Assembly (NCBI RefSeq): GCF_030323145.1
Contig: NZ_CP100470.1
Span: forward strand, 1 to 64,000
Length of the DNA stretch: 64,000 nucleotides
DNA from: Mesorhizobium sp. C432A
GTDB taxonomy: Bacteria > Pseudomonadota > Alphaproteobacteria > Rhizobiales > Rhizobiaceae
Direction: 5' to 3'
The position numbers and the translations under genes were made by a program. The notes beneath the pieces were generated by a model that was not told where the DNA came from, did no database searches, and saw only the letters and a program-made list of their open reading frames with translations. This document shows, piece by piece, positions 9,232-59,096 of this stretch. Within the stretch, counting starts at the first letter, position 1; the number at the start of each line of letters is the position of its first letter.

Positions 9232-9256
9232 GGGGCAAGGAACCTTGCTTGAGTTG

Positions 9257-9958: not shown

Positions 9959-10122
9959 CCGATAATTCGGTGTCGTTGCTTTTGCCGCGTAGCCTTGCTT
10001 TTGAAGGGCTGATTTCGGGCCGATGGTAGGTGATTGCGCCATTACTAAAATTGTATGTTTCCTCGAAACTGAAAGTGCAGCACCTTGGCCTTATGACAGC
10101 CGATCAGGCGGGAGATTGGCTA

Positions 10123-10972: not shown

Positions 10973-11825
10973 TGGCAGTCAGAACATTGATCAGCACCTG
11001 ACGGGTATTTGGAATGAGAAAATACAACGCTACGGCGGCCTTGCTCCCCGCAAGCGTAAGGCTGATCCGCAAAATCCGGGACTTTGCGGGCTTCAGCCGC
11101 GATCTAACCACCGCTGCAGCAGAGACAGTTGGTCCCGCGTTCACGGTAGCATTGTCTTGTAGAATCTAGTCGGCTCGGACGGCCGTATCAAGGCTTTCGC
11201 TGGAACATGCTAAAGTGCCGTTCACGCGCATACATCACTCGAAAAGCGAGTTCCGTATATATTCCAAAACGTTGCTCTTCAAAAAGTACCGCAGGCCGAG
11301 AAAGCTGTTGACGGTACTTTTCTCGAACGTTGCAGTCGAAGACTCCAGTTGCTGATCTGGGTCGATTTTGAATGAGATGAACCGCAAATCGTTGTTTTCC
11401 GCGCAACCTACGCTTGGGCACTCCAGACTGGCTAACCCCTACTCCCACTCGTCCAAACAGCATATTGAAATCGGAGGGACTCGATCGTGACGCGTGCGCC
11501 CGACCATCGCCAACGGTGGGCTCCAAACTGATCGAAACTTCTCGTCGACCTTTGCAAGGTGATTGATCATCGGGGAGACCAAAGCCGAAACACTGGGGTT
11601 GGTGTCTCCAGTGACGCTGAACGAAGCTTCAGGGAAAATCCCAAATCTGCCGATTTCCCTGGCGCTGTCATTGCAACGATCGAGACAATCAGGGAGACCG
11701 GACCGGAGGCACGAGACGCCGCGTCCTTCCGTGGGGTCGCTCCTCCAAACCGTTTGACGCAATTTAGAGATGTTGCCTTGACCCCGCACTAGCGTCTACT
11801 GCATCTCCCAGCGGGAGCGTCACCA
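10973..11825. other. Long intergenic region without a recognisable gene
   Basis: No frame here has a convincing start, ribosome site and protein pattern. It contains an inverted repeat, AAAAGTACCG at 11282-11291 and CGGTACTTTT at 11312-11321. The right arm belongs to a 13-mer (TGACGGTACTTTT, 11309-11321) that recurs in reverse complement at 32166-32178. A 51-codon frame from ATG 11013 has no supporting features. Confidence 0.5.
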
Positions 11826-12905
11826 ATGGCGAGAAAGTCTGTCCGACGCAAGTCAACGATTTATGATATCGCGGTGGCGGCAAAGTCGTCCCCGACAGCG
11901 GTTAGTCTCGTCCTCAATGGCTCGTGGCAACAGCACCGGATCAAGGCGGAAACCGCAGCGACCATCCTCGATTGGGCTGAGCGGCTTGGCTATGCTGTCA
12001 ACCTCAAGGCACGAGGATTGCGGCTTTCCCGATCCGGACTCGCTGGAATGATCTTGCCACATTACCGCAATCGCTTCTTCGCCGGATTGGCCGAAGCCTT
12101 TGAAGCGGAATCCCGCGTCCACCGCTTGTGCCCGATCGTCGTCAGCACCCATCGCAATCCTGATAACGAGTTGAGTGTGACGGAAACCCTGCTGGCTCAG
12201 CAGGTGGAATTTCTCTTCCTTGCGGGCGTTCGTGACCCCGATCCGCTGAATGATCTGTGCCGGGCAGCGGGCGTCCGGTGCATCAACATCGATCTGCCAG
12301 GCCGCCGGGCTCCCTCAGTTGTTTCTGACAACTACGGGGGCGCCAAGGCGCTCACAGAGATCATTGTTAAGAAATTGAAAGAACGAGGGGGCTCCACCGA
12401 AGATCTCTTCTTCTTTGGCGGGGTCAGCGATGATGACGCAACACGTAGCCGTTTGCTGGGTTTTCACGATGCGCTGGCAGCGCATGGGATTGTTACGGGC
12501 CCGGGCACGATTGACTGCTGCGGATACGCACCGACCAACGCTGCTCGGTCTCTCGCTGCACGATACGCTCAGCTTGGGCATCTGCCCTCAGGTATGTTCG
12601 TCAACGGCGTGACCGCTCTTGAAGGAACATTGCGGTTCACTTCGACACTAGCCTCAAGTGAGCTTGGACGGGTTGTTGTCGGAAGCTTCGACTGGGATCC
12701 ATTCGCGGCGCATTTGCCCTTCGATGTGACCATGGTCCGACAGAATGTCGAGGTGATGATTGCTGAAGGATTTTCGCTTCTCGAGAATTATTCGATAGAC
12801 CACTTTCCGCTGGTGACCGTACCGACCAGCTTTGGGCGAACCGGAGAGCATGACGGCGCCCAAGAAGATTGGGATTCGGCATCCAAATCGAGCATCGACC
12901 ACTAG
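11826..12905 (+). CDS. LacI-family transcriptional regulator
   Basis: The 359-residue protein has an N-terminal LacI helix-turn-helix ('TIYDIAVAAKSSPTAVSLVLNG', residues ~12-33) with the hinge 'RLGYAVNLKARGL'. A periplasmic-binding-like sugar-sensing domain follows ('GLAGMILPHYRNRFFAGLAEAF', 'VVSDNYGGAKALTEII', 'DDDATRSRLLGFHDAL'). Family members usually repress sugar genes and release DNA when a sugar binds. It stands directly upstream of and parallel to a sugar ABC/epimerase operon with a palindromic operator at 13097, so local control is likely. Confidence 0.92.
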   Translation: MARKSVRRKSTIYDIAVAAKSSPTAVSLVLNGSWQQHRIKAETAATILDWAERLGYAVNLKARGLRLSRSGLAGMILPHYRNRFFAGLAEAFEAESRVHRLCPIVVSTHRNPDNELSVTETLLAQQVEFLFLAGVRDPDPLNDLCRAAGVRCINIDLPGRRAPSVVSDNYGGAKALTEIIVKKLKERGGSTEDLFFFGGVSDDDATRSRLLGFHDALAAHGIVTGPGTIDCCGYAPTNAARSLAARYAQLGHLPSGMFVNGVTALEGTLRFTSTLASSELGRVVVGSFDWDPFAAHLPFDVTMVRQNVEVMIAEGFSLLENYSIDHFPLVTVPTSFGRTGEHDGAQEDWDSASKSSIDH

Positions 12906-31145: not shown

Positions 31146-31763
31146 ATGAAACGTAAGATTTTGACAGCTACAGCGATCTCTCTCTGTCTCGCCACCGCGG
31201 CCTTGGCGCAGTCGTCGGGAACATCCAGCGGCACGAACGGAACGTCCGGCTCATCGGCCGGGTCCAGTATGAGCTCTACGTCCGGCTCCGGCCAAAGCGG
31301 TATCCCGAGCGGCTGGGACAGCAAGCTCTCCGGCTCATTCTTCAGCGACGCCAATTCGGGAAGACTTCTGTCGCAGGATGAGATCCGCAAGAACTGGTCG
31401 TCCCTGAGCTCTGAACAGCAGGCACAGGTTCGCTCCGACTGCTCGAGGATGACGGCCAGTAACGGCACTGGCTCTGGCACAATGACCGGCACGTCAGGTA
31501 GCTCGGCTTCGACCGGCAGTGATACAACGGCGAGTATCGGCACCGGCTCTGGCACAGCCACCGGCACTTCAGGCAGCTCTGGTTCGACCGGCAGTAACAC
31601 CACGGCCAGCAACAGCACTGGTTCGGGTACAACCACCGGCACGTCGGGATCCTCGAATACAGCTGGCGATACGACCGCCAGCACCAGCACGGGTTCGGGC
31701 GCGAACTCGGCTGCTCAAATGGCTTCGATGCGGCAACTCTGCACTCAGGTTCAAGGGATGTGA
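31146..31763 (+). CDS. Exported Ser/Thr/Gly-repeat low-complexity protein
   Basis: The 205-residue protein has a signal peptide (MKRKILTATAISLCLATAALAQ). A short ordered core ('IPSGWDSKLSGSFFSDANSG', 'EIRKNWSSLSSEQQAQVRSDCSRM') carries one Cys, with a second near the C-terminus ('QLCTQV'). The rest is about 3.5 imperfect repeats of a ~30-residue unit of the type 'TGSGTxTGTSGSSxSTGSxTTAS'. It is likely periplasmic or extracellular. Ser/Gly-rich rhizobial proteins of this kind exist but I know of no defined function. A strong ribosome site AAAGGAGA precedes the ATG. Confidence 0.85.
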   Translation: MKRKILTATAISLCLATAALAQSSGTSSGTNGTSGSSAGSSMSSTSGSGQSGIPSGWDSKLSGSFFSDANSGRLLSQDEIRKNWSSLSSEQQAQVRSDCSRMTASNGTGSGTMTGTSGSSASTGSDTTASIGTGSGTATGTSGSSGSTGSNTTASNSTGSGTTTGTSGSSNTAGDTTASTSTGSGANSAAQMASMRQLCTQVQGM

Positions 31764-32833: not shown

Positions 32834-35800
32834 TCAGGGAGAGACCTGTAATGCCTCTATGAGAGGACGAGGATGCTTGGCCCAGACCGAGCACAAGGTC
32901 TCGTAAAGACGTAGCACGCCCCCCGCCTTGGACTGGGGCGCCAGCCGCGCCGCCGCCTCCAAGAGTTTGCCAAAGCGGCCGCAACGGTCTGCGATGTCCA
33001 CCAGGCTAGCCACCACGCGGGGAGCGCTTTGTTTCGATGTCAGGAGGTAGTTGCCGGGGCTGACTTCCTCCGGCCAAAACGAAATTTCTTCCCACATCAG
33101 CTTGAAGAGACTGGTCATAGTATCCGTATCCGATATCGACAACAGTGCGTTGCGTGCCGCTGCGTAAAGCTCCGGGACCCGCCCTGCCGCGACAAGCGGC
33201 CATTCGTCCATCTGGTTGCTTACAAGGGGAATCACCACCGATGCCTGCAGCGCCAGGTCATCGATGCGGTTCAAGGCTGCGATATCCAGCCGGCGTCCGC
33301 TCGACGCGCTTTCGGCCAATTCGCCCAGCGCCTCGAGCAATGGCCCGTGATCCGAACTGAGGCCGAGGCGCAGCGACGTCTCGTCCAGCCTCTCGCCTGC
33401 CGACGTGACTAGGCGAGCGGCAAGCGGCGGATGCAGGATGGGCAGCATCGACGCCTTCACCTCGATGGGTGAGCGGCGCAAATGGCGCAGCGCCATCTCG
33501 ACGCGAAAGGCAACGGGTGTGTTCGCCGGGCGTGGAAACGGCAAATCCTCAGGTGATTTGGCGCCGAGTAGAGGCCAGGGGTCGAAACCAGCCGTGCGGA
33601 CAGCCAGGATCACCGGAACCAGTGGGCCTTCGGCATCGACCGCTGCCTGCAGTTCGCGCAACGCCGCCGAACGCAGCCGCGTCATTATCGGGTTACTCGT
33701 GGTGGGGCCCGCAAGCAGAGTGTTCGCGAAGGTCCCAAACAGGGCGCTGGGGGAAACGTCCTCGTTGAGCAGGGCGGCGACCGCGGTCAGATAGGCAGGA
33801 TGGTTGAGCTTTAATTCCTCGCGCCGGCCACTTTGCATCAGCGCATTGGCAGCGGCATCGAATGCGACCCCGGCCATGCTTGCGACATGCGCGAAATCGC
33901 CGGTATTGAAACGTGCCTCGATAATTTCCGGCGAAGCGAGCTCAATTTGCTGCTGATCCAGCTCTGATTGGACGGTCTCCCGCGTCGGACCATCCCCAGC
34001 TGCGTGCAAGTGGATGGCGGCTGACTTGCCGCTGCGACGATCCGACTCCATCTCGTAGCTGACCTTCTGGCCTTCGACCAAGGACGACAACCCAGCCCGC
34101 TCGACCGCGCTTATGTGAACGAAGATGTCCTCGGCGCCCTCATCAGGTGTAATGAACCCGAAGCCCTTGGCGGCATTGAAAAACTTGACGGTGCCTTTTG
34201 ACGTCGACGATGTCGCGGGTGTCGCTCCTGTGCCGGCTTGAATTGGCAAGCCTTCAAGCACAGCAGACTCCAGTCCCTCCGAGACAAGAGCCCGTCGCCG
34301 CCGTCTCCGGAACTTCTCTCTTTCGGCAGCTGGCAGGGCGTCCACTTCCGCCTCGCTCAATCGCTGATTGCCGGCTGCGTTCTTGACGCGCGCCCGCACC
34401 GCCAGTGGCAGATCCTGCACGTCGGCTCCAAGATGGAGGGACAGCCCACGCAGGAGGAGAGATCCAACATCGTCGATGGGCTCGCCGGCCAGCGCCCGAT
34501 AGTAGAGGCTTTCGAACCGCCCAGCCTCGTCTGTTGTATGCGTCGCGTACCAGCCGCCCGCCGCCGCCGCGATTTCCTTCGATCCAGGCTGGCGCAGAAT
34601 CTGCGGCAGCATCAGACGTCGCAGATCGCGCCGGTGCACGGCCTCATCGGCACCGACCGCATCAACAAGCCAGATCTGGCGGACCAGCTTGTCGAGGATG
34701 GCACGAGCCTCGACCTCTGAAAGGTTATCGCCCAGCGAGCATGGCCCGGCCAGAACGTCGCGGATCAGGGCCACCGTTACCCGCCGCAGGATCAAGCCGG
34801 GACTTGCCAATGCCTTCACTTGTTTGTCTGCGATGCGGTCGAGGATCCGGCTATATAGGAAACGCTGGCCAAACTCGGCCTGCAGTCCTGTGGATGCCTC
34901 CTTCTCCCCCGATTCGATGAGCTTTATCACCTGGCGCCGCCGTTTGCCGGCGCAGTACCGTGCCAGTATCTCCAGCACCAGTGGATTGGACCCGAATGCA
35001 CCGACCGCGCGCGGCACCAGGTCCATGTAGCGCAGACCATGGCGACGGAAAACGTCGCGTAGCTTGGCCTCGCCAGCCCTACGCCCAAGGTCACCGAGAT
35101 CGGTCCTCGCCACGATACTAACCTGGCCATATGGGCTGGCCTTGACCGAATCGATCGCACGGCCCGACAGAATGATCCGGATCTCAGGGAATGGGACCTG
35201 TTGGCGAAGCTGCCCCAGCCAGTCCGAAAGTAGATCAAACCTACCCGCACCAGCCGCCAGAAGTTCCTCGAACGTGTCCAGCACAAATACCAGGGGGTGA
35301 GCGAGCCGCGGTTTGTTTGCCAGAAGCTTGCCCACCGTTGCGAAGAACTCGATCAGCTCGGTCGATGACTTCTCCACCTGGCCGCTAGGCCCGGCGTTCG
35401 CAATACGCGAGCGGAAGATATCCCGGCTTTCGGCAAGCTCCTCATCGATGCCGGGCTCGATCAGCCCAAGCTGACGCGAGAAGTCGAGTGAAAGAGCGGC
35501 GATGTCGCCAAACCGCAGTTGCGGCTGGTCGAAGTCGAAGACGATCAGGGTTAGATCGCGTCTCGTCGCCAATGCCTTGCGCACGACGCCGAGCAGCGCC
35601 GACTTGCCGGCGCCGCCGACACCACCCAACGCGATCGCGGAAAAAGACCGGAGCGGTTCAACCGTGTCAACCAGCCATAGCGAATCGAACGGCTTTGCAC
35701 GCGCCGCCTCGATCGCCGACATGCCTTTGATAGCGTAGCCCATGAGGAGCCGCCGTTCGCGTACCCTGCCTCTAAACGCCTCCGGCAGCAGCGCCTTGCC

Positions 35801-36307
35801 CGCCTCCTCGCGGCTCGTCAGCGTGATCGCTCGGCGCAACTGCGACATGGTCGCTTCGTTCACCCAGCTAGGCCTTGCGATGCCTGTCTCGATCACGAGC
35901 TGGACGGCCTGGAGCAAGGCCACCTGTTCCTCTGCCTCGGCCAGCCGCGCCTCGATCGAACCTGCCCCTGCTGAACGGCTCCTAGTGGGCCGCCGCGACT
36001 GGGCCAATGCGACCTGAAGCATGCGGCCGAACAGATCGTCGGGGTCGGGGTTATTTGCGTCGAGGAATTGCCGCAACGCACCGCGGCTCGCCGGAAGACC
36101 TTGCAGACCGTCCCTCCGCGCTGCCGGCGTCAACATCCACAGCCAGCGCCCGTTGACGTTTTTTTCGCTGGCGCGCCGGGCAAGGAAGGCGAGGCCGTTC
36201 TGGTCGGCTCCGCCGCCGAGCAGCACCAACGGATCGAAGGTCCCGCGAACTGACGCACGGGTAAGCAGGGCTGCCCTGTCTGGCTCGGCTAGCGGTTTTG
36301 TGTCCAT
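32834..36307 (-). CDS. STAND-like P-loop NTPase with internal cold-shock domain
   Basis: I start at ATG 36307 (1157 codons), which overlaps the upstream gene by 19 bp; the open frame extends 54 codons further without support. The N-terminal ~225 residues are unassigned. The NTPase has Walker A '[12 protein letters not shown]' (~228-239), Walker B '[12 protein letters not shown]' (~339-350) and a sensor-like '[11 protein letters not shown]', with a helical region to ~700. A complete cold-shock domain follows (~703-768; 34001-34201) with the RNP1-like 'KGFGFITP' and RNP2-like 'DIFVHISAV' motifs. A ~390-residue helical C-terminus ends the protein. STAND NTPases act as switches in immunity and cell death; the cold-shock domain implies nucleic-acid sensing. 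It is third in a coupled set of protease/NTPase genes. I know no named family with this architecture. Confidence 0.82.
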
Positions 36308-38184
36308 CGTTCCCACACTGGAGTGACAATCTGGCCAAGCACGGCAGCCACCTTCAGCAGCAGCGGCCGTTCGTCGCCACGCAGATCCTTCGCTGTCGCC
36401 AACGTCAACTCGGCCAGGCGGTCGATCTCGTCGGTTTGGGTGGCAATGCGCAGATCGGCGAACATGCACTGGAGGTAAGTGAGGATTTCCTGCTTCGACG
36501 GCTCCCGCGGATCGGGCAGGTTCTCCGCTTCGACCTTGGCCGGATCGACGGCCGGGACATTGCCCTTCAGCCCGATCAGCACGAAGCGAATTTCTGGCAG
36601 GGCGGCCTGGAACAATGCGTGGAGAAAGTTCATGGCGTCGCTCGGTGTGGCGGTCTCTTCGGTAAGCCGATCGATGACTAGCCAGACCAGCGAAGACCGG
36701 CCTTGTTCGTCCTTTGGAAGAGCTTCGCGAAGGCGGTTACTGAAGACGCTCATGAACTCGCCGGCATACCAGGCAATCGTGGTGGTGCCGGAGCCGACTG
36801 GGGCCGGCAGGTCACCCGCCAGCGCGCTGCCCGCCTGATTGAGGATCGTCTGCGCCAGTTCCCGACCGGTCACCGGGAGCTTGTCGCCATCGAAGTTGAC
36901 CAGGATCCTGCTGCGATACTCCAGCCGGTGTTCAAGCAAGTCCCGCGTGAAGGTCTTGCCCGATTGGGGCGCCCCCCGGATGAGCAGAAACGGCTTGGGT
37001 GTACCGGCCGCATTCATCGCCGATACTGTGTCCAGCGTGCGGGAACGGCCTATGACCGCCGAAGTGTTCGCGAGCCTCCAGACCACGTCATATGCTGGCA
37101 ATACATCGGCCGCATTCGGGGCTCGGCTGGAAATCGCCACAGCGGAAATCGCGATATTGGTAATGAACTTCTTCGTCTTCGCGTTAACGACTTCGCCCTG
37201 GTGCAGACCCACGAGATTGAAGGCCGCATCAAGACAAAGCCCTCCCGATGAGCCCGGCAGGGTTGGAGCCTTATGCTGGATCTGATAGTTGCCCCCAGGT
37301 TTCACGACGGCCCCGGCGGCAACGGCGATGTGCTGGGTGAGCCTTTGTGGATGCTGTATGACGAAGAACGGTCGCGCATTCGCCTGTTGGTTGCCAGGCG
37401 CCACGATCGGGATGGCAGCTGCCTGCTTGAGATCGTACCAAGATCGCAGGCGCCCGGGCGCGCCAGCAACCCGGATGACACAGAAGTCCAGCGGCGTGCC
37501 CGGTTTGAGTTTCGTCATGTCGGGATAGCGCGACTGCTCGGCCGTCACCGCCATCGGGCTCCATTCGACCAACCAAGGCTCGACCGCGGCGTGCCGGGTC
37601 TCGCGATGGGCACCAACAAGGTCAAAGCTGCAAGCCAGTCTAGACGCACTGTTGGGCAGCGCCTGCCCGGTGGCCGGGTCGATCAGCGTGTGCACAACAT
37701 GCCAGTTGGTCAGTACGGTCTGCGGTCCAACCAGAAAACCGGTTCCGTTGCCGACGCCGTCTATCTCGACCATGCAAACGCGTCGGGTCGCTTCGAGCAG
37801 ACCGCGCACCATCGTCGCGATGTCGATCAACTTGAGCATTTCTGGCGTGATGCCCTGTGGCTTGAAAAGATACGCGCTACCGTCTTGCGGCCTCAGAACG
37901 AGGGCTCCTGCGCCGGCGGGCATGCCGGCAGCGTCGACGAGCCCTGAGAGATTGAGATACCGCAACGCTGTCAGATGGGCGACCAAACCGCCGAGAAAAC
38001 CGGCCTCTTCCGCCTGCGTGAAGGCGGCGGCAAAGGCCGCCCGATTGTCTGCGGTACCGAGCGCCGCCATCTTGAAGTCGAGATAGTTTGCCGTCGAATT
38101 GGCGGCCACGGCATCGAAGGCCTGCGCGAATGCTTCGCGGCTGACTGTCACTTCATTTGCGTAAGCGGCGGCGGTCGCCTTCAT
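36289..38184 (-). CDS. Trypsin-like protease fused to P-loop NTPase
   Basis: The 631-residue protein has three parts. An N-terminal helical domain (~1-80; '[17 protein letters not shown]') resembles the effector-associated domains of bacterial conflict systems. A trypsin-like protease (~130-350) shows a plausible triad: His162 in 'VLTNWHVV', Asp233 in 'PLDFCVIRV', Ser313 in 'PGSSGG'. A P-loop NTPase has Walker A '[10 protein letters not shown]' (~403-412) and Walker B-like '[13 protein letters not shown]'. Such proteins couple NTP-dependent sensing to proteolysis in the cytoplasm. Its start overlaps the upstream double protease by 4 bp (ATGA, 38181-38184) and its end overlaps the STAND/cold-shock gene, so the three are translationally coupled. 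Confidence 0.85.
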
Positions 38185-41005
38185 GCCTTCCTCTTCATTG
38201 CGATGAGCTTCGCAAGTTGGGGTTGTTCGGCCAACACCTCGCTCAGAATATGCGCATGGTTGGCGCGCAGCCAGTCACCGGCAAAATGCAGGCCAATCGC
38301 CTCCAGCCGCCTGCCAAGCTCGCCGGTCAACGAGCCGGAATTGCCGCCAAGCGTCGTGGCGTCATGGTCGAGCACCCATCTGTGACTGCGTTGCTGCACC
38401 ACGCCAGGACTGAAATACTTGCGATGGTAATCGAGGCCGAACAATTCGCGCAGCCGCTCGACCACGTCGCGACGGATCCTGCCCTGATCATCCCGGGGCA
38501 AGGTGGTGGGTGGCGCGGGATAGCCGACCACGAACAGGTTCGTCGCCGCAACCGGCAGAGCGCCGCCCGCTACCGGAATGGCCGCTGGCAAGGCGGTTTT
38601 TGCGGTATTGGTGGTGGCGACCCTGAGCAGGGCAAGGTCGAGCTTTGCATAGTCGATCGGATAACGCAGGATCGGCTGCGGGCCGCAGAACATTACCTCT
38701 TCAATTGCAAACCGGCTCACCGGGTCCTCCCCTGACGGCGAGAAATCGATCGTGGCCGGTGCATTCAGAAGCCAGCGTTCGGGATCGACGGCCCGAGGCA
38801 GCGGTGAGGCCAGGCTCTCCAGCACGTGTCGATTGGTGACGACCAGCCCGTCGCCGATGACGAACCCGGTGCCGATGTGTATGCCATCGCTGTCGATGCG
38901 ACCGACACTACCGAACCGACTGGCTTCGAGTGTATCGAGCGCGAGACTGACGAGGCCGGAAAAATTACCCAGGCCAGGGTCGGAAGCATCGACCGTCTGG
39001 ATCGTACGGTCACCCTCCTCACGCGTCGTGACAGGCAATGCCGGCCGATCTGTGAGCGAAACCAGCGCCTCGAGGCGAACCGCCGCAGCCTCCGGCAAAC
39101 GCGCGGATGGGCCTTCGCGATGAAGCTTGTCCAGGCTTGCCTCGATATCAGCGACGTCGTGGGCCAAACCAGACCGCCCCGACTTTTCAAGCCTCTTCAC
39201 CAGCGGTTGGACGATCTTGCGCCGGCCTTTCTTGTCGAGGCTGGCTTGCGCGTCCGCAAGGTCCATGGCACCGGCCCCCTCCGGGCTGATCGTGCCGCCG
39301 CTGCTGGAGGCGGCCAGTCCCTTGATGATGCCTGCAAGGCGAGCCTGATCGACGGTTTCGCTCGTCACCAGCGCCGGCGCGGCAAGTCCGGTTCTCAGCA
39401 CCAATTGAGCAAGGCGAGCATCTCTCGCTAGCCCGGCCGCATTGGACAGCCCGCGCGACACGCGCTGGAAGGCGCGGGCCTCGACCGCCTCTCCAGACGG
39501 CGCACGTCCAACCTTCGCGTCGGCGAGCAGAAGCGCCGACGTTTCGGCCGCATGCGCCGACCAGTCGAACCGGGAATCGAACTGTCCAGGCCCGAGCACG
39601 GTCTCCAGCGCGCTTTCCAGGCCCCCGGCGTCTCCCAGCGTACGCGCAGCTCCACTCAGGTCGATGTCGCGTAGCGACAATGCAACCAGCGCACCGGCGT
39701 CGACGACACCGGTTCCCATCCCATGGCCCCATTGAGCCGGGCGGCGTGCCGTCTGTCGGGCAGCGGCCCGGAAAAGCTCCTGCACGTTAGTGCTGCGCCG
39801 GCGCGCCTCGCGCAGGATGGCGTCACGCCCGAATTGGGCGAGCCAGAGTGCCGCGATGCCGGCGGTGAGGGCCACGGCAAAAGATGTGCCTTGCCCGGCG
39901 CTGACCTTGTCCTTCGGGTCGCCGGCTTGTTGGCGGTCAGCGCGCCAGACGAATTCGGCGGGCGCGCAGAAGTCGATCTTCGCACCGGAGGATGACCCCT
40001 GCCAGAGCTTGTCTTGGATGTTAGTGCCGCCGACCGCGATGACGTCATCGAAGGCGGCGGGCCAGACAACCAGGCCCACACAGTTGCCGGCAGCGGCCAA
40101 GACGATCATGTCGCGGTCGACCGCTTTGCGGATCGCCTGCCGCAACGACCGGCTCCAGATGCCACCAAGGCTCATGGTGATGACGTGGGCACCGATCTTG
40201 ACGGCGTGGTCCACCGCCTTGGCGACCGGACTTCCGTCGAAGATCTTCACATCCTCGGTGCAGCGGATGGGAACAAGCGTCGCCCGCGGCGCCGAACCCG
40301 CTATCTGTCCTGTCTCAGCCGAGGCGGCGACACTGCCGGTGGCGGTGCCATGCCCCGGATTGGCCGTTCCCGGCCTGAGCGGATCTTTCGGGTTCTTGCC
40401 ACCCTCGAGAAGGTTGAGAGATCGGCTGAGGTCGAGCGCTGCATCCGCGATCTCGGGGTGATCGGTGACCCCGGTGTCGGGCTGCGCGATGACGACACCG
40501 GCGCCCTTGGCGGGCGAGGCCTGCCATGCTCGCAGCACGCCGGTCTTATCCAGGGCCCAGCGCTTGTCCGGGGGCGGCGCTCCCGGCGCCCAGCAATAGG
40601 AATCAACCACAGCCGATTCAACGCCGGCCGGCAAGGCTTCCTCGGGATCGACGAAGACGTCAGCGCCGATGTCGGGCTCGCATGAGATCAGGCCGAGCGC
40701 ACGTCGAAGGTCGGCGGCGATGGCATAGAGCTGTTCCGGGGCAGCGTGCGGTCGATGCCGCGCAACGCCATCACGAAAAACTGCACCCCGTTCGCCTCAG
40801 CGTCGTCGAACAACGGCTGCAGATCAAAAGTGCTGGCCCCTATCAGCCCCGACACATCCGTTGAGAGCGCGGCCGCGGCCTTCGCCGGCGTGGCGCCTGG
40901 CCGGAGCGCCTCCAGCACAAAGCGGAGGCGATTGGGCGCAAAGATCGGCCTTTTGTCTTCGCGAGCCGATTTGGCAAGATCCCGCAAGAAAGCGATTCCA
41001 GACAT
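38181..41005 (-). CDS. Subtilisin-trypsin double protease (single frameshift)
   Basis: Start at ATG 41005, behind the GAGGAGA ribosome site. The first ~90 codons ('MSGIAFLRDLAK'...'GIDRTLP') and the main 817-codon frame (38181-40634) are joined if one C is added to the run at 40738-40741, giving '...TLPPEQLYAIAADLRRALG...'. From the TTG-started main frame, the S8 subtilisin domain has Asp53 ('QPDTGVTDHPE'), His95 ('NPGHGTATGS') and Ser251 ('GQGTSFAVAL'). A helical linker (~300-560) leads to a trypsin-like domain with His603 ('VVTNRHVLE'), Asp666 ('LDLALLRV') and Ser766 ('GGNSGS'). Two different serine protease folds in one chain is unusual. No signal peptide is seen, so it is probably cytoplasmic. 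First of three coupled genes. Confidence 0.82.
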
Positions 41006-41290: not shown

Positions 41291-41877
41291 TCACTTTGGA
41301 GGGCCCGCATCTTTCTCAACTCTTTGCAACGCGTCAAACAGGTCTTTGGCTATCGAACGCAATTCATCGATTGTCGATGCCGCAATAACACGAACACGGA
41401 ATGCCATGGGAATGAGCTGGAGCGTGGCCCTGTCATTTGCAATGGCCATGATCCGTTGCACTGGTGAATACAGGAGATACAACAAACCTCCCACAGAAAG
41501 CCCAGAAAATAATGTTGTCAGCCAATTCTTCGCCTCACTGTTCGTAAATTGAAGGACAATCGAGGCGACAATTAACAGAACCAAAAAATGCCTATGAATA
41601 ATATCCAGCGCTTGGCCTCTGTTTCATCCGACTTGCGCTCCGCAAGAACCGCGTCCACCCGCTTTTCGAGATTGTCCAAGGCTGTATAGACCTCTGCTTT
41701 CATGCCGGCGATATCGGCAGCCGGCGCCGACGCTGCCTCGGTCATTGCTCCTTCGCGACTGAAGCCGCTGATCCGCGCGACGAGGCTGGGGCCGAAAATC
41801 GGTTTGCTTCGATTGAGCAAAGCGAGGCTCCCTTTTGTGGCAGGGCTAAGTCCATCGAAAAGCTGGCCGTCTGTCAT
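41291..41877 (-). CDS. Two-transmembrane protein (TRADD-N-associated-like), single frameshift
   Basis: Start at ATG 41877 behind GGAGGATC. The first frame ends prematurely after 'KRWILFIGIFWFC'. One extra T in the six-T run (41583-41588 on the + strand) restores 'RWILFIGIFLVLLIVASIVLQF', a perfect transmembrane helix continuing into the frame that ends at 41291 (~195 residues). Layout: a cytoplasmic N-terminal region with a possible coiled coil ('MKAEVYTALDNLEKRVDAVLAERK'), TM1, a short loop, TM2 ('LFSGLSVGGLLYLLYSPVQR') and a C-terminal helix. This resembles two-TM modules found with CHAT or TRADD-N-like conflict proteins, which supports but does not prove that role. It follows the CHAT gene by 14 bp. 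Confidence 0.7.
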
Positions 41878-41891: not shown

Positions 41892-44800
41892 CTATTCGAG
41901 CGCAAGACGTGCAGTTACATCGCCAAACAAGACATACGCTGACCAGGTCGGATCGGTGCTTGGACTGTCAGCAAAAAGTTTCATGCGAGCGTTCATGACG
42001 GCTTCGGCAACTGAAAGCCCCGCCAGAGGCTGACGGCGCAGCCATTTCCATAACAGACTATTGGGCGGCGGGAGTGCGCCAGCATAGAAATACTGTGCAA
42101 AACTGGTCGCGAATTGCGACTGAACCGGCCACTGAGTGCCGAGGACCACGGCGCCTTGAACAATAAAGGGCGTGGCGAGCCCGGCAAGCGCAGCGCCTCC
42201 CTGATCCGATCGTTCTTCCAACGTGCCGCAGGCGTTCAGGATGATGACACTGGGCTTGCGTGGGGAGCGCTGAAGTGTTTCTGCAATCTCATCACTCGAA
42301 ACACGATCTCGATCGTTCAGGACAAGTCTCGCGGTCCCTTGTTGGTCAAGCTCGCCATGCCCTACGAAGTGAACCAGATCAGCAGCCGCGAGTTGTTCCA
42401 GGAATTCCTGTTTCGACATGCCGACGTGCCCGACTATGACGGTGCTGATACCAACACGTCTCATTGTGAGCGCAATTTCATCGCGCTCGGTCTCCCATCC
42501 TGGCGGAATCGTCTGACCTGCGGGCGCGGCGTAAACAAAGGCGCGGAGGGCTCCATCGATGCGAGGAGCTTGCGGAATGACGTCGGCCACGATAACCCGC
42601 GACACTGAACATTGGACATTGACCGGCAACTCATTTGGACCTGTGAGAAGGTCCCAAGGCAAATCACCGAGGGTCCGATCGACTACAAGCTGAAGACTTG
42701 AAGGCTCCTGCGTCCGCAGACTGAAGCCAATACGCTCAGTGGACAAAGCGTCGATGGACCCACGCATTTGAATAAGCTGCTTGGAGAACGAGCGCAGTTG
42801 CTCGGGCGAATTGGTTGTTGTGACGTGATCGCTCATTTCTCGTATACGGCCACGAAGACCTTGCAACTCCGGTGAAAGGTTGCCAAGCCAGCGAGCCGCG
42901 AGTTTCAAGCTCGCGCCTCGCTTCCCAAGCTCCGACATCAGCCCGTTGTCAGTCACAGAAATTTCTAGCGTCCGGTCAGGAAACGCGGTGGCCAGTCGCC
43001 ACTTTCGGCCAGAAAGGCGCCGTAAGATGAACTCCGTTGGACCTCGCCGGCTTATGACCAGGACGACTAGGAGAATAGCTGCAATGCCAATAGCCGCGGC
43101 GACCCAGGGATTTTCGTAGAGCGGCATGGCATATCGAAAATGCGATGACAATGGCTCGCTGGCATTGCCGGCGACATCGAAAAGTCGCGCCGTCGCAGTG
43201 TAATTCTGCCTGTCTTGAAGGTCGGCCAACGTTACCGGCGACGGCGGGATTTGGTCGAAGACGGAGTGCTCCTGCTGGCCGTCAACTGATGGTGTAATCT
43301 CGATTTGCAGATGGCTCGCTAGGCGCGGCCCTACTGGCACTTGTGCGTCGAAATCGAGACGGATAGAGGCGTGAGGCAAAGGATCGGTGATTGTGGTTCT
43401 TAGTGCCAAGGTGGGAGGTATGTTCGGAATGACCACCCGAAACAATGTTGAGCCCACGGCAATGTATTGAATGGGAACCGGCGATGTGCCGGCAGAAGCA
43501 ATGTAGGCTTTGGCAGACAGCTGCAAGTGCTCGTCAAGGAGTCCGAAGCGTTTAAGGCCTCGATTATCGGCCAGAAGCAGCCCCAGGTCGGACAGGACTA
43601 TCTGCCGGCCGTCGGGGAGGCGTTGGGCCTTGTAAAAAATATAGGGATCGGCACCCGAAACTTTGATCGGCTCCGACGACACAAGGTGCCCGGCTTCAAG
43701 GCGAAGCTCAACGGGAGCGCCCCAAGATCCCCAAGCTGTGACCGTGTCATTGGTCTCATCGATGGCCAAGGCACCAAACAGGTTGATCTTCCCGCCGTTG
43801 CGAATGGGGATTTCATCTGAGTCAATCCAGGTACCATCGCTGAGCCGAAGGGAGACTGATGTGACGCCGATAGCCCAAAGACGGTTGTTACGATCACATT
43901 TGAGGTCGGCGACCGCATTGCCTCCGACATAGACAGGCAAGCCGTGGATGGATCGCCAACGCCCCTCGACGAGCATGAGAACATCGGAAGTCCAGGATTG
44001 GCCGGCAAATATCGCGCCATTGGGGCAAATGGCGAACGAACTCGGTGCCCTCGAAGAATCGCTGGGGAGGGGTGGGCCTGCCTGCGCAACAGCAGTTCCA
44101 AGATCTCGAAACAGACCAGCGTTGGTGAGGGTCCAGACAGCTCCTTTGGAATCCTCTGCAAACAGCGGTCCCGCATCGTATGCACTGCCAGGCTCGCCCT
44201 GCCTGCCGGCAAGCAACGGGACAGTGGCCCCGTCCTTGAAGCTTAGCACACTGCCATTCTGCAAGCCGACATAGACACCGCCGTCCGGCCCTGCTGCGAG
44301 TGAATCTATGGTCTCGGTGACGGCAACGTCATCGACGACCAAGGGCACATCTTCTACAAAATCATAGTGTCGCCAGAGACCGAGGTTCGTTGACACCCAG
44401 AGGTTTCTGGCGTCGTCAAACGCGAACTTTGACGCTTGCCCAATTCCACTCGCGTCGTTGCGATAAACCGACTGCCAAGCCAGCCCGTTGAAACGATAGA
44501 TGCCCGTATCGATCGATGCCCATATCTGCTTTCCATAAGGCTGCAACAGAGCGAAGCAATTTCCTGCATAGAAGCGCTCCGGCTTCGACGGCGATACGGG
44601 GTTGAGTCTAAAACAGCCACCGTTCTCACCTTCGCCGACGCCAGCCACGAGGAGTTGGCCATCCGGGGTCGGCTGTACGTCCTTCAGAAACTGAATAGGG
44701 ACGTTCGCGAGCGGCTTGGTTGCCCCGGTATCAGGGTCAACGGTCAGCACGGCGCCGCCCTCGGTCGCTGCAAAAAGATGCCCTCCACTGACGACGAGAC

Positions 44801-45638
44801 GGTCGACCCCTCTGACGACTGTTGGTTTTGCCGCGACAAGCTTTTCCAACTCGGTCAGCAGCGTCAGCTCGCCTTCAGGATCGCCCCGATACTCGGTGGT
44901 GCCCAACACGAGCCGTCCGTCAGGCAGTTTCGCGAAGCTATAGGTACCTCTGCTGCGTTCGCATGCGGGCGTGAGCTTTGTCAGATTGGACCCTGCTGCC
45001 AGAAAAACTTCTTGCCATTCGCTCGACACGAGGATGCGCCCTTCATCCAATGCGATCGCATCGTGGGACATAATGGCCGAGGAAATTTGCAACCCCGCTT
45101 GCTCCGCGCACGTGGTCGAGGGGTCTGGAAGCGCAAGCGGTCGCACCCGTTGTTGATCAACCAGACTCATTATACGGCCATTGGTCGCAAGCCATACCAG
45201 TCCGGGCCGAACGGCGACGATGGCGGCCGCTTCGCGATCGGGACTTTCGACAGGAAGGTAATCCCATTGCCCGAGGTAAGGTCCGGAAAGAGGCGTGCCT
45301 ATAGCAGGTAGACCCTGCGATTGGACACCTGCAGATGTGAAGCACACCAGGGCAAGAACTGACCCCAAGCGTTTCACAACATCAGCGCTCATGGCGAAGA
45401 AGCGCTGCCAGCCATGCGTCATACGTGACGTGAAGCGCGAAGTTCGGCCATTGGCTTCAATGCCAGCCCGCTGGTGCGCGCCATCACCGGTCAAGTCACC
45501 AGCGACTTCCAAGCGCTCGATCTGTCCTGCAGAGAGCATTCGCTCTGCGCTTGGCGAATGGCGGAGTCGTTGCGGCTTTTCACGCCTGAAGGCTCGGTCC
45601 TTCGCACGCTTGCTCGGTTTGTTGTCATGCGTCGCCAT
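41892..45638 (-). CDS. Transmembrane beta-propeller sensor with C-terminal CHAT protease domain
   Basis: The frame encodes 1248 residues. A signal-like segment ('MSADVVKRLGSVLALVCFTSAGVQSQ') begins at residue 83, so ATG 45392 is a likely true start; the preceding 82 residues are Arg-rich and unsupported. A periplasmic domain of propeller-type repeats ('DARNLWVSTNLGLWRHYD', 'PDGGVYVGLQNGSVLSF') resembles hybrid two-component sensors and ends in an Ig-like Y_Y_Y-type domain. One TM helix (~845-864) precedes a cytoplasmic CHAT domain with the caspase-like dyad His1094 ('VHFVGHGELD') and Cys1137 ('VIILNACGT'). Inferred role: an external signal activates an internal cysteine protease. Replacement of a histidine kinase by CHAT is unusual. 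Confidence 0.82.
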   Translation of the reverse strand: MATHDNKPSKRAKDRAFRREKPQRLRHSPSAERMLSAGQIERLEVAGDLTGDGAHQRAGIEANGRTSRFTSRMTHGWQRFFAMSADVVKRLGSVLALVCFTSAGVQSQGLPAIGTPLSGPYLGQWDYLPVESPDREAAAIVAVRPGLVWLATNGRIMSLVDQQRVRPLALPDPSTTCAEQAGLQISSAIMSHDAIALDEGRILVSSEWQEVFLAAGSNLTKLTPACERSRGTYSFAKLPDGRLVLGTTEYRGDPEGELTLLTELEKLVAAKPTVVRGVDRLVVSGGHLFAATEGGAVLTVDPDTGATKPLANVPIQFLKDVQPTPDGQLLVAGVGEGENGGCFRLNPVSPSKPERFYAGNCFALLQPYGKQIWASIDTGIYRFNGLAWQSVYRNDASGIGQASKFAFDDARNLWVSTNLGLWRHYDFVEDVPLVVDDVAVTETIDSLAAGPDGGVYVGLQNGSVLSFKDGATVPLLAGRQGEPGSAYDAGPLFAEDSKGAVWTLTNAGLFRDLGTAVAQAGPPLPSDSSRAPSSFAICPNGAIFAGQSWTSDVLMLVEGRWRSIHGLPVYVGGNAVADLKCDRNNRLWAIGVTSVSLRLSDGTWIDSDEIPIRNGGKINLFGALAIDETNDTVTAWGSWGAPVELRLEAGHLVSSEPIKVSGADPYIFYKAQRLPDGRQIVLSDLGLLLADNRGLKRFGLLDEHLQLSAKAYIASAGTSPVPIQYIAVGSTLFRVVIPNIPPTLALRTTITDPLPHASIRLDFDAQVPVGPRLASHLQIEITPSVDGQQEHSVFDQIPPSPVTLADLQDRQNYTATARLFDVAGNASEPLSSHFRYAMPLYENPWVAAAIGIAAILLVVLVISRRGPTEFILRRLSGRKWRLATAFPDRTLEISVTDNGLMSELGKRGASLKLAARWLGNLSPELQGLRGRIREMSDHVTTTNSPEQLRSFSKQLIQMRGSIDALSTERIGFSLRTQEPSSLQLVVDRTLGDLPWDLLTGPNELPVNVQCSVSRVIVADVIPQAPRIDGALRAFVYAAPAGQTIPPGWETERDEIALTMRRVGISTVIVGHVGMSKQEFLEQLAAADLVHFVGHGELDQQGTARLVLNDRDRVSSDEIAETLQRSPRKPSVIILNACGTLEERSDQGGAALAGLATPFIVQGAVVLGTQWPVQSQFATSFAQYFYAGALPPPNSLLWKWLRRQPLAGLSVAEAVMNARMKLFADSPSTDPTWSAYVLFGDVTARLALE

Positions 45639-45660: not shown

Positions 45661-45876
45661 TCACTTGGCGAGAATTGGGGCGATATTGTCTAGCCGTACA
45701 GATGGGGCCGAGTCGGGCTCCTCGTAGATCTTGACGAGCGCGTCGGGATCGACAGGCCTAAGATCCGCTATCTTCCTTTTACCTTCGACATCCGGATCCA
45801 TCCATTTGAGCACCTCGCAAGCAGCGGTAACGTCTATGCGATCGACAGTCGGATAGACGGGGATGCCAACCATCAT
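45661..45876 (-). CDS. Small protein of unknown function
   Basis: The 71-residue acidic protein ('MMVGIPVYPTVDRIDVTAAC'...) overlaps the DUF2182 stop by 4 bp and ends 22 bp before the propeller-CHAT frame, so it is part of the run of genes. It has no signal peptide, TM helix or motif I recognise. Translational overlap supports that it is real. Confidence 0.6.
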   Translation of the reverse strand: MMVGIPVYPTVDRIDVTAACEVLKWMDPDVEGKRKIADLRPVDPDALVKIYEEPDSAPSVRLDNIAPILAK

Positions 45877-46691
45877 GCTGAGATCCTATTCAGGGCTGAT
45901 GTAGCAGGCTGAGCGAAACCAGGCCACGCCGCGCCCCAGCGCGGAGCTCTCGGCACACCAGCTCGCTCGACGATTGTCATCAGCGTCACGGCAACCATAA
46001 TGAACCAGTGCAATGGGTGGTCCGCCGCGAGCGGCAGCAACATCAGGGCCCAGCATTCGATGACGCACCAAACGCTGTAGCTCGCGCCATATCGAGCCGC
46101 GTCTGTTTCGGCACGAAAACCGTACGCAGCGAGCGGCGGCTGGCGGTGGCAGCGGTTAAGACTTAGCTGCTTGAGAGGCACGACCTGCCAAAGCAGTGCC
46201 AGGAGAGAGGCGGCTGCGATGGGCGGTACGCCGACGACCGAAGCGACATTTTCCAGCACAAGCGATCCGCTGACCAGAAAAATGCCCGCTGCGAGCCAGA
46301 CAATAGCGTAGCCGAGAACGAATAGGGCAACTGCGCGGACGCGCCGTCGACTAAAGCTCCGCTGCCACACATGCAGCAGGGGGGTGGCAAGCAGCGGCGG
46401 CATCATTGCCAGGATCATTGCCAACCATGTCAGGACTTGCGCCGACGGCGCGCTGACTGCCAGGACCGCCGCGAGGCGATGCATCGTCACTTCAGCCATC
46501 CCAGTTGCGCTCAGACAAAGCGCAGGCAACGATGGAAAAGCGTCTTGGACAGCGAGCAGCGTCCACCCCGAAAAGCTCGCTACGAGTAGCGGCAAAGGTA
46601 GCCGCGCCAATACACACCACACTACTATCGCGGGTCGCACATTACTGCCCCTGACGATAGACGCTGATCCGGCCGATGGATAAGTCATCAC
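45873..46691 (-). CDS. DUF2182 integral membrane protein
   Basis: The 272-residue polytopic protein has DUF2182 hallmarks: 'WLAMILAMMPPLLATPL' (W-x-MxxAMMxP), 'QVVPLKQLSLNRCHRQPP' (Q-x-xPLKxxCLxxCRxP) and 'YGASYSVWCVIECWALM' (the GxxYGxxCxGCCWALM region). Some canonical Cys are replaced here. The family is predicted to bind metal and often lies beside oxidoreductase genes. Its start overlaps the end of the tyrosinase gene by 50 bp, hinting at a role in copper handling or export for that enzyme (inference). Confidence 0.8.
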   Translation of the reverse strand: MMTYPSAGSASIVRGSNVRPAIVVWCVLARLPLPLLVASFSGWTLLAVQDAFPSLPALCLSATGMAEVTMHRLAAVLAVSAPSAQVLTWLAMILAMMPPLLATPLLHVWQRSFSRRRVRAVALFVLGYAIVWLAAGIFLVSGSLVLENVASVVGVPPIAAASLLALLWQVVPLKQLSLNRCHRQPPLAAYGFRAETDAARYGASYSVWCVIECWALMLLPLAADHPLHWFIMVAVTLMTIVERAGVPRAPRWGAAWPGFAQPATSALNRISA

Positions 46692-48237
46692 TGGTCGCGC
46701 CTGGCACAGCCGATATTAGCTTTACCGACAACTCGCCGCTTAGCGAGTTTTCGGTGTGCATCCTGTCGACGATAGATGTTATGTCGAGCGAAGTGGTGAC
46801 ACCGTCCCCGCCAGTGGGGCCTAGCGGCGTGCTAGCTTTGCTAACGCCGAACATCGAAAGCGTCCCAGCGAAGTGATCGGGGTATTTCTCCGGATCGGCG
46901 CCTTGCGGAAGATTGACATAGACATAAAAAAGCGCCGCGTCGCTCGGGCTCTTGATGTTTTCGAGATTGAGGTAGATGCGATCGGGTTCCCGGGCAGCAG
47001 CGGCACTGAATGTCTTCGCGTTCAGCGCTCTGGTCAATTTCTGCAGCTCTTTGCCATCAAGGCGTACGCGGCTCTCTACAACATCGCCGTTGAGACGAAC
47101 AAGGCTGGTGTTGGACCCGATAAGTTCTGCGGCCTTGGGCGGTGTCATGGTCACAGCTCCTGCTAACTCAATGGCGAGTGACGGAGATGCGCCGAGCTTT
47201 TCGAAGCGCACCGCGAGTTGGTCTCCTGGCGCGACCGGTGCGGCGTCATCATCATAGATATAGTCGAGCATCGGCACCTTAGTGTCGAGCACATCGCGCG
47301 CCGTGAACTTATAGGTCGTGCCGTCAAGGCGCGGCATAGCGAAGTCTCGATCGCGTGGACCATCAAGCCAGTCGGCGTCTGCGGGATTCTTAAAGACATC
47401 GGCCTCGTCGCCCAACCGCTGCTTCTGCCTTAGCCAGACGTTCCATAGGCGGTCGATATTGGCGTGATGGAGCCAAAAGATCGGATCGAGCGCAGCGGTG
47501 TCTGGATTCGTCATAAGTCCCCATTCGAGGGGATCGGAGCTGAGGCCGCGACCTTTGAATCCGCCGCCGACCCAGACGTGGACGCCACCATGGGGCTGGC
47601 TTTCCAGTGCGCCGAATTTGCCCTTTTCGCCATGATTGAATGGCGTCTTGATTCCACCAAAACCGCTTAGACCGCCATCTCCCGTGCCTTCGAAAAACCT
47701 CTCCAGGAGAGTTTTGTCGACCGTGACCACACGGCTGTCGAGAACGATCGGCGATTGCACGTTTGGTATCTGCGCAGCGCCGTAGCGCTGGGCCACGTGC
47801 AAGAAGTTCCGGCCGCCGCCAGGCAATTTCGCCTTCGCGAAGGCACGCGGCAATTCACGAGCCTTGGGGTCGTCCGAATAATTCCAGTATGGCAACGCCC
47901 AATCAGCGGGACCACCGAGCTTTGTTACAGCATCCCGGACGACTGTTTCAAAAGCAGCAAGATAGCCGCGGTGCCACGGCAGAAAGTACCAGGATAAATG
48001 CTGGCACTGACCCCAAAGCTTCTTCTGCACGCCGGGCGGCGGAAATTTGGTGTCGTCAGCGATAAAGCTGAAGCCCTTCCAGATTCCCTTATCGATGCCG
48101 TGCATCGCACCAAATGACCACCAACTCGTGATGTCCGTGATCGGGCGCTTCTGAAGTGCCTCGACTGCCTTGCCATACCATTCCAGCGTCGTATCGCCGA
48201 CTGGAAGCTTCCAGACATCTCGACGGACATGCGCCAT
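46642..48237 (-). CDS. Tyrosinase-like type 3 copper oxidase
   Basis: The 531-residue protein has both copper sites of the tyrosinase/polyphenol oxidase family. CuA: His46 ('AMHGIDKG'), His80 and His89 ('CQHLSWYFLPWHRGYL'). CuB: His216 and His220 ('PHGGVHVWVGG') and His257/258 ('DPIFWLHHANIDRLW'). The C-terminal ~200 residues form a beta-rich domain like that of plant or bacterial polyphenol oxidases, which can cover the active site. It oxidises phenols to quinones with O2. No signal peptide is visible, so it may be cytoplasmic or use another route. Ribosome site GGAGTTGG lies before ATG 48237. It clusters with cytochrome-like proteins and DUF2182. Confidence 0.93.
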   Translation of the reverse strand: MAHVRRDVWKLPVGDTTLEWYGKAVEALQKRPITDITSWWSFGAMHGIDKGIWKGFSFIADDTKFPPPGVQKKLWGQCQHLSWYFLPWHRGYLAAFETVVRDAVTKLGGPADWALPYWNYSDDPKARELPRAFAKAKLPGGGRNFLHVAQRYGAAQIPNVQSPIVLDSRVVTVDKTLLERFFEGTGDGGLSGFGGIKTPFNHGEKGKFGALESQPHGGVHVWVGGGFKGRGLSSDPLEWGLMTNPDTAALDPIFWLHHANIDRLWNVWLRQKQRLGDEADVFKNPADADWLDGPRDRDFAMPRLDGTTYKFTARDVLDTKVPMLDYIYDDDAAPVAPGDQLAVRFEKLGASPSLAIELAGAVTMTPPKAAELIGSNTSLVRLNGDVVESRVRLDGKELQKLTRALNAKTFSAAAAREPDRIYLNLENIKSPSDAALFYVYVNLPQGADPEKYPDHFAGTLSMFGVSKASTPLGPTGGDGVTTSLDITSIVDRMHTENSLSGELSVKLISAVPGATSDDLSIGRISVYRQGQ

Positions 48238-50745: not shown

Positions 50746-51402
50746 CTAGCGTAGAACAAACTCCGTCTTTCCATTGTCTATAAAGGGCAATTGCCTGCCG
50801 CGACGAACCAGCAGCGAATGGTCGATGCCGAGGATCTTGCGGACACTCGCCAGCGCCGCCTCATTCACGTCGATGTAGGCGACGATGTACCATTCGCCGT
50901 TTTCTTCGCGCGCCATGCCCATCGGCTCGGCCCGCCATTTGAGCGCGCCGTGGTGGGGCATGAAGTAGGTTTCCTGGATGCCGCCGACAGCGCCGAGACC
51001 CTCGTCGAGCGCGTATTCCATCACCGCGCAGCAGAGCTGCGTCAGCGTGCCCCGCAGCCCGGTCGAGCGTTTGTCGGGCACGACAAAAGTGCGTGTCCAT
51101 TCGGCCCAATCGGGACGCCTGGGCACGCCTGATTTTTCGCACATGTGAGAAAAGATCTCCGAGACCATGTGCGGCTCGCTCGTTGGGATCAACCGAGCCG
51201 AGGTCACCACGCGACCGTCTTCGATACCCAGCAGATAGGTTGCCGCTTCCGTATCGAACTGGTCCAGCTCGCGACCATCCGGGCTCGCAGGGCGCCAATG
51301 TTTCTGGTGCACGAAAAAGTCGTGCCGCCGGCGCAAAAACTCATCGAATTCGTTTTCGTAGAGATGCTTGTTATGCGCGTTGACGACATGGGCAGCTATC
51401 AT
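50746..51402 (-). CDS. luxI: Acyl-homoserine-lactone synthase, copy 1
   Basis: The 218-residue LuxI-family synthase has the conserved '[13 protein letters not shown]' (Arg, Phe, Trp), '[15 protein letters not shown]' (acidic catalytic residues), 'RLIPT' and 'EWTRTFVVP'. The '[11 protein letters not shown]' segment resembles BjaI/RpaI, synthases that use branched or aryl acyl-CoA. It is encoded within an apparently exact 795-bp repeat shared with 58480-59274. Only the last 12 residues ('[11 protein letters not shown]') differ from copy 2. Upstream lie the lux-box palindrome and only the last ~80 bp of a luxR gene. Confidence 0.92.
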
Positions 51403-58436: not shown

Positions 58437-59096
58437 TTATGCAGAGGCGTATCGCTTGTTGTTTCGGCTTTCGAAGAACGGCAATTGCCTGCCGCGACGA
58501 ACCAGCAGCGAATGGTCGATGCCGAGGATCTTGCGGACACTCGCCAGCGCCGCCTCATTCACGTCGATGTAGGCGACGATGTACCATTCGCCGTTTTCTT
58601 CGCGCGCCATGCCCATCGGCTCGGCCCGCCATTTGAGCGCGCCGTGGTGGGGCATGAAGTAGGTTTCCTGGATGCCGCCGACAGCGCCGAGACCCTCGTC
58701 GAGCGCGTATTCCATCACCGCGCAGCAGAGCTGCGTCAGCGTGCCCCGCAGCCCGGTCGAGCGTTTGTCGGGCACGACAAAAGTGCGTGTCCATTCGGCC
58801 CAATCGGGACGCCTGGGCACGCCTGATTTTTCGCACATGTGAGAAAAGATCTCCGAGACCATGTGCGGCTCGCTCGTTGGGATCAACCGAGCCGAGGTCA
58901 CCACGCGACCGTCTTCGATACCCAGCAGATAGGTTGCCGCTTCCGTATCGAACTGGTCCAGCTCGCGACCATCCGGGCTCGCAGGGCGCCAATGTTTCTG
59001 GTGCACGAAAAAGTCGTGCCGCCGGCGCAAAAACTCATCGAATTCGTTTTCGTAGAGATGCTTGTTATGCGCGTTGACGACATGGGCAGCTATCAT
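58437..59096 (-). CDS. luxI: Acyl-homoserine-lactone synthase, copy 2
   Basis: The 219-residue LuxI protein is identical to copy 1 through 'RRGRQLPF'; it then ends differently ('FESRNNKRYASA'). It lies 84 bp downstream of a full-length luxR, with the lux-box palindrome between them, so this is the copy in normal quorum-sensing context. Catalytic residues are as in copy 1. A BjaI/RpaI-like branched- or aryl-HSL product is possible; sequence alone does not settle the acyl group. Confidence 0.93.
   Translation of the reverse strand: MIAAHVVNAHNKHLYENEFDEFLRRRHDFFVHQKHWRPASPDGRELDQFDTEAATYLLGIEDGRVVTSARLIPTSEPHMVSEIFSHMCEKSGVPRRPDWAEWTRTFVVPDKRSTGLRGTLTQLCCAVMEYALDEGLGAVGGIQETYFMPHHGALKWRAEPMGMAREENGEWYIVAYIDVNEAALASVRKILGIDHSLLVRRGRQLPFFESRNNKRYASA

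Follow-up and report, generated by a model that had tools for sequence, protein, structure and literature searches.

A 64,000-nucleotide stretch of DNA from Mesorhizobium sp. C432A (hereafter, the window) carries on its minus strand three overlapping genes, denoted A, B and C, which were delineated from the ORF list and a domain search. We conclude that the trio is probably a CARD-NLR-like operon of the LypABC type, acting in programmed death or anti-phage defence, with a subtilase–trypsin double protease as its third component. The domains, intact active-site residues, predicted CARD-like fold, gene overlap and co-inheritance that underlie this conclusion come from the analysis itself. A first-pass annotation of the sequence had read the genes as a conflict or programmed-death system, with NTPases as sensors and proteases as executioners, and that reading is now well supported by the co-conservation of the genes, the CARD-like fold and the nuclease or phospholipase genes found at related loci. 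The same annotation proposed an undescribed system. This part did not stand: the architecture is that of CARD-NLR/LypABC systems, as set out in the available passages of PMC13236601, and an in silico study of 2020 had already reported closely related alphaproteobacterial operons (PMC7159879, in the passages available). The trio belongs to the already known CARD-NLR kind of system, among which it has two distinguishing features, the subtilase–trypsin protein in third position and a cold-shock insert in C.

Three overlapping genes and their domains

The genes and their parts are as follows.

38181..40634, minus strand: gene A, main open frame (Pfam; A-family HMM positions 83-932; catalytic residues invariant)
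About 39747-40505, minus strand: A subtilase (S8) domain (Pfam)
About 38331-38873, minus strand: A trypsin-like domain (Pfam)
40688..41005, minus strand: 105-aa ORF, split-off N-terminus of A (A-family HMM positions 1-86; unbroken homolog P0069)
36289..38184, minus strand: gene B (Pfam; predicted model; fold match of residues 1-88; conserved residues)
37921-38184, minus strand: B CARD-like domain, residues 1-88 (fold match on predicted model)
37204-37746, minus strand: B trypsin-like domain (Pfam)
About 36385-37056, minus strand: B C-terminal P-loop ATPase (Pfam, below curated cut-off)
32834..36307, minus strand: gene C (Pfam AAA_16; NACHT, NPHP3_N or nSTAND matches in homologs; alignment A4)
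About 35246-35659, minus strand: C STAND/NLR-like ATPase, followed by a C-terminal region (Pfam AAA_16)
34016..34198, minus strand: cold-shock domain within the C linker (PF00313)

The stop of A and the start of B overlap in a common ATGA (4 nt); with C starting at ATG 36307, its overlap with B is 19 nt. In the mechanical ORF call, C begins at GTG 36469; we preferred the ATG because homologs begin at its position (alignment A4). The description of three coupled genes with a subtilisin–trypsin fusion, a trypsin–NTPase and a STAND-like NTPase with a cold-shock domain was thus borne out, and the domain search found the domains in all three (for the ATPases of B and C, at scores below cut-off). 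The originally annotated span, 32834..41005, does contain the trio, but position 41005 is the start of the separate 105-aa ORF and not of the main A frame.

Gene A matches Peptidase_S8 (E 7.2e-29) and Trypsin_2 (E 4.4e-11) in Pfam, and the subtilase D/H/N/S and trypsin H/D/S residues are kept in 16/16 rows of the family alignment. By eye, the region ahead of the subtilase looks prodomain-like. The 105-aa ORF corresponds to A-family positions 1-86, in a frame different from that of the main ORF, and a strong ribosome-binding-like GAGGAG lies 5' of its ATG. Since the N-terminal part sits in another frame, A is frame-broken in the present assembly.

The operon could therefore be a decayed copy, non-working in this strain and working in relatives. 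A small neighbouring membrane gene (about 41300-41877) also appears broken on reading the sequence, and breaks are found in relatives too, in C of Sinorhizobium meliloti (L016) and in B of Ruegeria (L017). Against real decay, all active-site residues of A, B and C are intact, and a protein from another record, P0069 (912 aa), covers the whole of the main A ORF at 100% identity and reads through unbroken, so that misassembly, or a change that is not fixed, may explain the break. The broken look of the membrane gene also makes assembly indels a fair suspicion. On balance, we regard decay as rather unlikely.

Gene B matches Trypsin_2 (E 1.6e-15), with AAA_16 and AAA_22 matches under the Pfam curated cut-off. 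Its trypsin triad (H162/D233/S313) is present in 21/21 rows of the family alignment, the Walker A residues G404, G409 and K410 each in 20/21, and the Walker B aspartate D505 in 17/21. In the predicted structure (model pLDDT 85), the fold of the helical N-terminus (residues 1-88) is closest to the solved CARDs of Lysobacter enzymogenes and Azospirillum in a fold search against the PDB, and on this model the N-terminus of B is CARD/Death-fold-like. The likeness emerged from fold comparison only: the N-terminal stretch had no Pfam, NCBIfam or PADLOC match (collections that do not model every EAD), and searching the PDB by sequence, with B or with its profile, returned trypsins and no CARD chain. 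A Foldseek search with the whole of B gave trypsin-like proteases among the 50 matches listed. The trypsin and P-loop NTPase first assigned to B hold, and the N-terminus, first read as effector-associated-like, is CARD/Death-fold-like and matches no catalogued family model. The EAD idea was near in spirit, as Death-like domains share an adaptor purpose with EADs (PMC8195603, in the passages available).

Gene C gives an AAA_16 match (E 1e-6) at 29.8 bits, below the cut-off of 32.6. The GKS of its Walker A motif and D344 of Walker B are kept in 12/12 rows of the family alignment, and several homologs have NACHT, NPHP3_N or nSTAND matches. The cold-shock domain (PF00313, E 3.9e-20) sits within the linker that joins the ATPase core to the C-terminal region. 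Each of the 11 other sequences in A4 has just 0-3 of 60 residues in the columns of this domain, and Pfam detected no cold-shock domain in any of the 13 other C proteins scanned. A homolog search with C returned only one other protein bearing such a domain, P0068, which we rejected as a relative along its length because it matches over 6% of C and has a TIR domain. On these alignments, the insert appears to be a private, probably recent, addition to C.

A CHAT gene lies upstream of the trio, and PADLOC reported a weak BovA match for this CHAT neighbour. At E<=1e-60, the window's own genome was the only one of 144 in the genus to match the CHAT gene, with no match in the trio-bearing G001, and the gene was set aside as a fourth part.

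Co-inheritance and relatives of the trio

Co-occurrence in other genomes was among the checks suggested at the outset. Locus maps built from a profile HMM for each gene showed A, B and C adjacent to one another and in unchanged order at ten separate loci.

Window (genome G000): A-B-C
Rhizobium phaseoli plasmid (L014): A-B-C
Polaromonas plasmid (L015): A-B-C, with a NucA gene directly after C
Ruegeria megaplasmid (L017): A-B-C, with B broken
G643 (L034): A-B-C, with a NucA gene directly after C
G639 (L036): A-B-C
G508 (L042): A position taken by a trypsin-NucA-S8 ORF plus a trypsin ORF
G001 (L044): A-B-C, with an adjoining trypsin-phospholipase D gene
G891 (L053): A-B-C, with a NucA gene directly after C
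G025 (L055): A position taken by a trypsin-NucA-S8 ORF plus a trypsin ORF

The loci are divergent, the other nine sharing 34-48% (A), 23-33% (B) and 26-31% (C) identity with the window in best local alignments. Pairwise distances of A, B and C over the ten loci were nevertheless tightly correlated (r 0.946-0.948; 0/5000 permutations as high), in a comparison of the three genes alone, with no housekeeping control. The four loci from the window's own genus (G000, G001, G891 and G025) are scattered, with G891 nearest R. phaseoli and G025 nearest G508. As these same-genus loci do not cluster, species descent is insufficient as an account of the co-inheritance.

Plasmids host the trio at three of the ten loci. 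In all 14 plasmid records whose match covers 80% or more of A, B adjoins A; four of these (L014-L017) were inspected directly and the other ten judged from coordinates. The S. meliloti record has A, B and the broken C. A scan of genome contigs with B added one distant relative, from Caballeronia (L001), in which B and C are accompanied by a trypsin-only protein and the subtilase is absent. As supporting evidence only, identical lengths of the longest contig, counted by hand, linked 14/50 B homologs to one of the best 120 of 1026 A homologs. Two pattern-limited scans of viral contigs found no encoded relative.

The unit is sporadic. B was found at E<=1e-30 in 6/146 genomes of the genus, two of which (G008 and G862) match B in the trypsin part only, with C not found in the stretch fetched. 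A class-level search with A (E<=1e-60) matched 4/385 genomes, and only the window's own match spans the trypsin half, the other three ending at position 538 or less. The family-level search (E<=1e-100) matched 10/394 genomes, four of them with the full arrangement (G000, G643, G639 and, with its two ORFs in the A position, G508). Three others (G523, G602 and G511) have A, with B and C not found in the stretch fetched, and a further three (G666, G719 and G528) have subtilase-only relatives, one with an internal stop.

The existence of A relatives without B and C implies that the double protease is a module not confined to a single use. In G523, the A relative adjoins a YcaO gene (Pfam), suggesting that this protease is used there in peptide maturation; the ORF beside A in G602 looks similar to that YcaO gene. 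By extension, the trio itself might be a stand-alone proteolytic maturation or stress system, processing a peptide product for instance, with no immune role. We find this quite improbable, as neither a YcaO gene nor a precursor gene was recognised next to the trio, B and C are immune-type parts (a CARD-like domain and an NLR-like ATPase), and relatives bear NucA or PLD.

Relation to CARD-NLR and other protease-based systems

LypABC of Caulobacter crescentus has been placed alongside the Lysobacter gasdermin system within the CARD-NLR family (PMC13236601, on whose available passages we rely throughout). LypA consists of a CARD, a trypsin and an ATPase; LypB of an N-terminal domain, an Orc1-like ATPase and TPR-like repeats; and LypC of a trypsin and an endonuclease (PMC13236601). 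The CARD of LypA binds the N-terminal domain of LypB in a two-hybrid assay, and mutants indicate that lysis requires both peptidases and the NLR ATPase (PMC13236601). LypABC is reported to be without a working death effector, the effector being variable in CARD-NLR systems, and the Discussion of the same paper states that the activation of these systems is unknown (PMC13236601).

The window's trio has several hallmarks of this family: B carries a CARD-like domain at the N-terminus of a protease protein, followed in the same protein by a trypsin with an intact triad and then an ATPase, and the adjacent gene C encodes an NLR-like STAND ATPase. Both are three-gene operons in which, by description and not by sequence alignment, B corresponds to LypA and C to LypB in layout, and A, the further trypsin-bearing protein, stands in the place of LypC. 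They differ in that A carries a subtilase where LypC carries an endonuclease, in that B retains its Walker A residues whereas LypA is reported to lack them (PMC13236601), and in the cold-shock insert of C. Co-option as a lysis switch for gene transfer agent (GTA) release, and not for phage defence, is very improbable: the protein architecture is the same as that of LypABC, on which GTA-mediated lysis depends (PMC13236601), but the one GTA marker family searched, GTA_TIM, had no match in the Mesorhizobium genome and was positive in the Caulobacter vibrioides control, and the unit is sporadic and in part plasmid-borne.

The CARD-NLR gasdermin defence of L. enzymogenes and Azospirillum resembles the trio in pairing protease and NLR partners, in addition to having the CARDs to which the predicted fold of B is nearest. 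It differs in that no gasdermin was recognised beside the trio, which has a subtilase–trypsin protein. A second relative is System 3 of Kaur et al. 2020, an in silico description of peptidases coupled to NucA and Death-like-domain STAND proteins, mostly in alphaproteobacteria, whose operons there comprise NucA, trypsin, S8 and a STAND protein with a Death-like domain and a trypsin (PMC7159879, in the passages available). The trio shares the trypsin, S8 and STAND parts, and L042 and L055 carry exactly its trypsin-NucA-S8 fusion and fit the system. The window's trio has no linked NucA, the genome holding one unlinked trypsin-NucA gene, and because System 3 has a NucA-type endonuclease in the operon we did not file the trio under it. 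More distantly, Hachiman and AVAST include protease-activated pairs in which a trypsin-like protease activates a nuclease (PMC12799240, in the passages available). The use of such a protease as effector activator within an immune system is common ground, whereas the metallo-beta-lactamase-type pro-nuclease and the other sensors of those pairs were not seen in the trio.

PADLOC matched the trio with generic models only (subtilase, trypsin-like, retron CSD_V and a weak RT-protease) and gave no named system. The literature searched, which excluded most subscription papers, yielded no account of a CARD-NLR type with a subtilase. CARD_NLR has a subtilase subtype in DefenseFinder, which is one of the main reasons why we do not claim the trio as a new variant.

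A candidate protease cascade and its effectors

From LypABC and knowledge of the family, we infer how sensing, CARD contact, the order of the cascade, killing and defence might proceed. C, the NLR-like STAND ATPase, would use its C-terminal region to detect an invader or a damage signal, perhaps aided by nucleic-acid binding of its cold-shock domain, and would bind ATP and oligomerise. The N-terminal region of C would then gather B through the CARD of B, and clustering would activate the B trypsin. B in turn may activate A by cleaving its N-terminal or linker regions, after which A would kill the cell through broad proteolysis or activate a further effector. That effector may be the NucA or phospholipase D fused to or neighbouring the trio in many relatives.

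A bolder version, in which the CARD-NLR variant is purely proteolytic (NLR to CARD-trypsin to subtilase–trypsin executioner, dispensing with pore, nuclease and lipase) and the cold-shock domain senses single-stranded nucleic acid of the invader directly, strikes us as unlikely. On the preferred LypABC-type reading, nucleic-acid sensing by the cold-shock domain is a hypothesis, and a concrete one, on what such an NLR senses. One mobile, translation-coupled unit here combines a bacterial CARD-like domain, two protease families and an NLR-like ATPase, which makes an activation order like that of animal caspase cascades testable. The variation in the third position (subtilase–trypsin, trypsin-NucA-S8, or neighbouring NucA/PLD) suggests one activation module with different killers.

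NucA or PLD is fused to or beside the trio at 6/10 loci; no such neighbour was recognised at the window, L014, L017 or L036 (the flanks of L036 lying outside the domain search). At the window, A itself could serve as the death effector. The same genome also encodes a 754-aa trypsin-NucA protein (4,271,251-4,273,512), unlinked to the trio and the source of the only Endonuclease_NS match in that genome, at 4.27 Mb. This protein was found in 4/41 genomes searched, its own included, and its link to the trio is weak because only G001 of the other three has the full trio; it is a possible trans partner of the trio and may take the part of the further effector here.

Genes upstream of the trio

The trio, three overlapping minus-strand protease and ATPase genes (A–C), is preceded on the same strand by a gene for a CHAT-domain protein.

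41892–45638, minus strand: CHAT-domain protein (PF12770, E = 1.2e-21)

This protein, which also contains propeller repeats, was found at E ≤ 1e-60 in one of 144 genomes of the genus, the window's own. Between its gene and gene A, a small gene with a hydrophobic stretch (41300–41877) appears to be divided between two frames.

Genes at other loci

Protease and caspase genes were also found elsewhere.

Own genome, 4,271,251–4,273,512 (L056, 25–2289): trypsin–NucA protein, 754 aa, not linked to the trio
L035, 4412–9404: subtilase–trypsin protein related to gene A, beside a YcaO cyclodehydratase gene
L053, 1794–4820: caspase–NACHT–FGE-sulfatase protein
L018 (Mesorhizobium onobrychidis plasmid), 5603–12094: consecutive alpha/beta hydrolase, caspase, trypsin–PLD-type and trypsin genes

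The trypsin–NucA protein, found in four of the 41 genomes searched (its own included), is alike in layout to LypC, the trypsin–endonuclease protein of Caulobacter LypABC (PMC13236601). Outside the trio, as next to YcaO at L035, the double protease may serve peptide maturation. The L053 gene, from another genome of the window's genus, is divergent from an A-B-C-NucA cluster.

Other genes in the window

50746–51402: acyl-homoserine-lactone-synthase-like protein, copy 1
58437–59096: acyl-homoserine-lactone-synthase-like protein, copy 2
45873–46691: PpoB2-type copper chaperone (Pfam)
46642–48237: tyrosinase-domain protein (Pfam)
31146–31763: small Ser/Thr/Gly-rich protein

The two synthase-like proteins share 99% identity across 210 residues, and the pair is a recent duplication flanking the LodA-like oxidase cluster. 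FAD oxidoreductase, ferritin-like and S8 genes accompany the LodA-like oxidase gene in this cluster. The chaperone gene adjoins the tyrosinase-domain gene. The Ser/Thr/Gly-rich protein has a start resembling a signal peptide, and its gene contains 75-bp tandem repeats.
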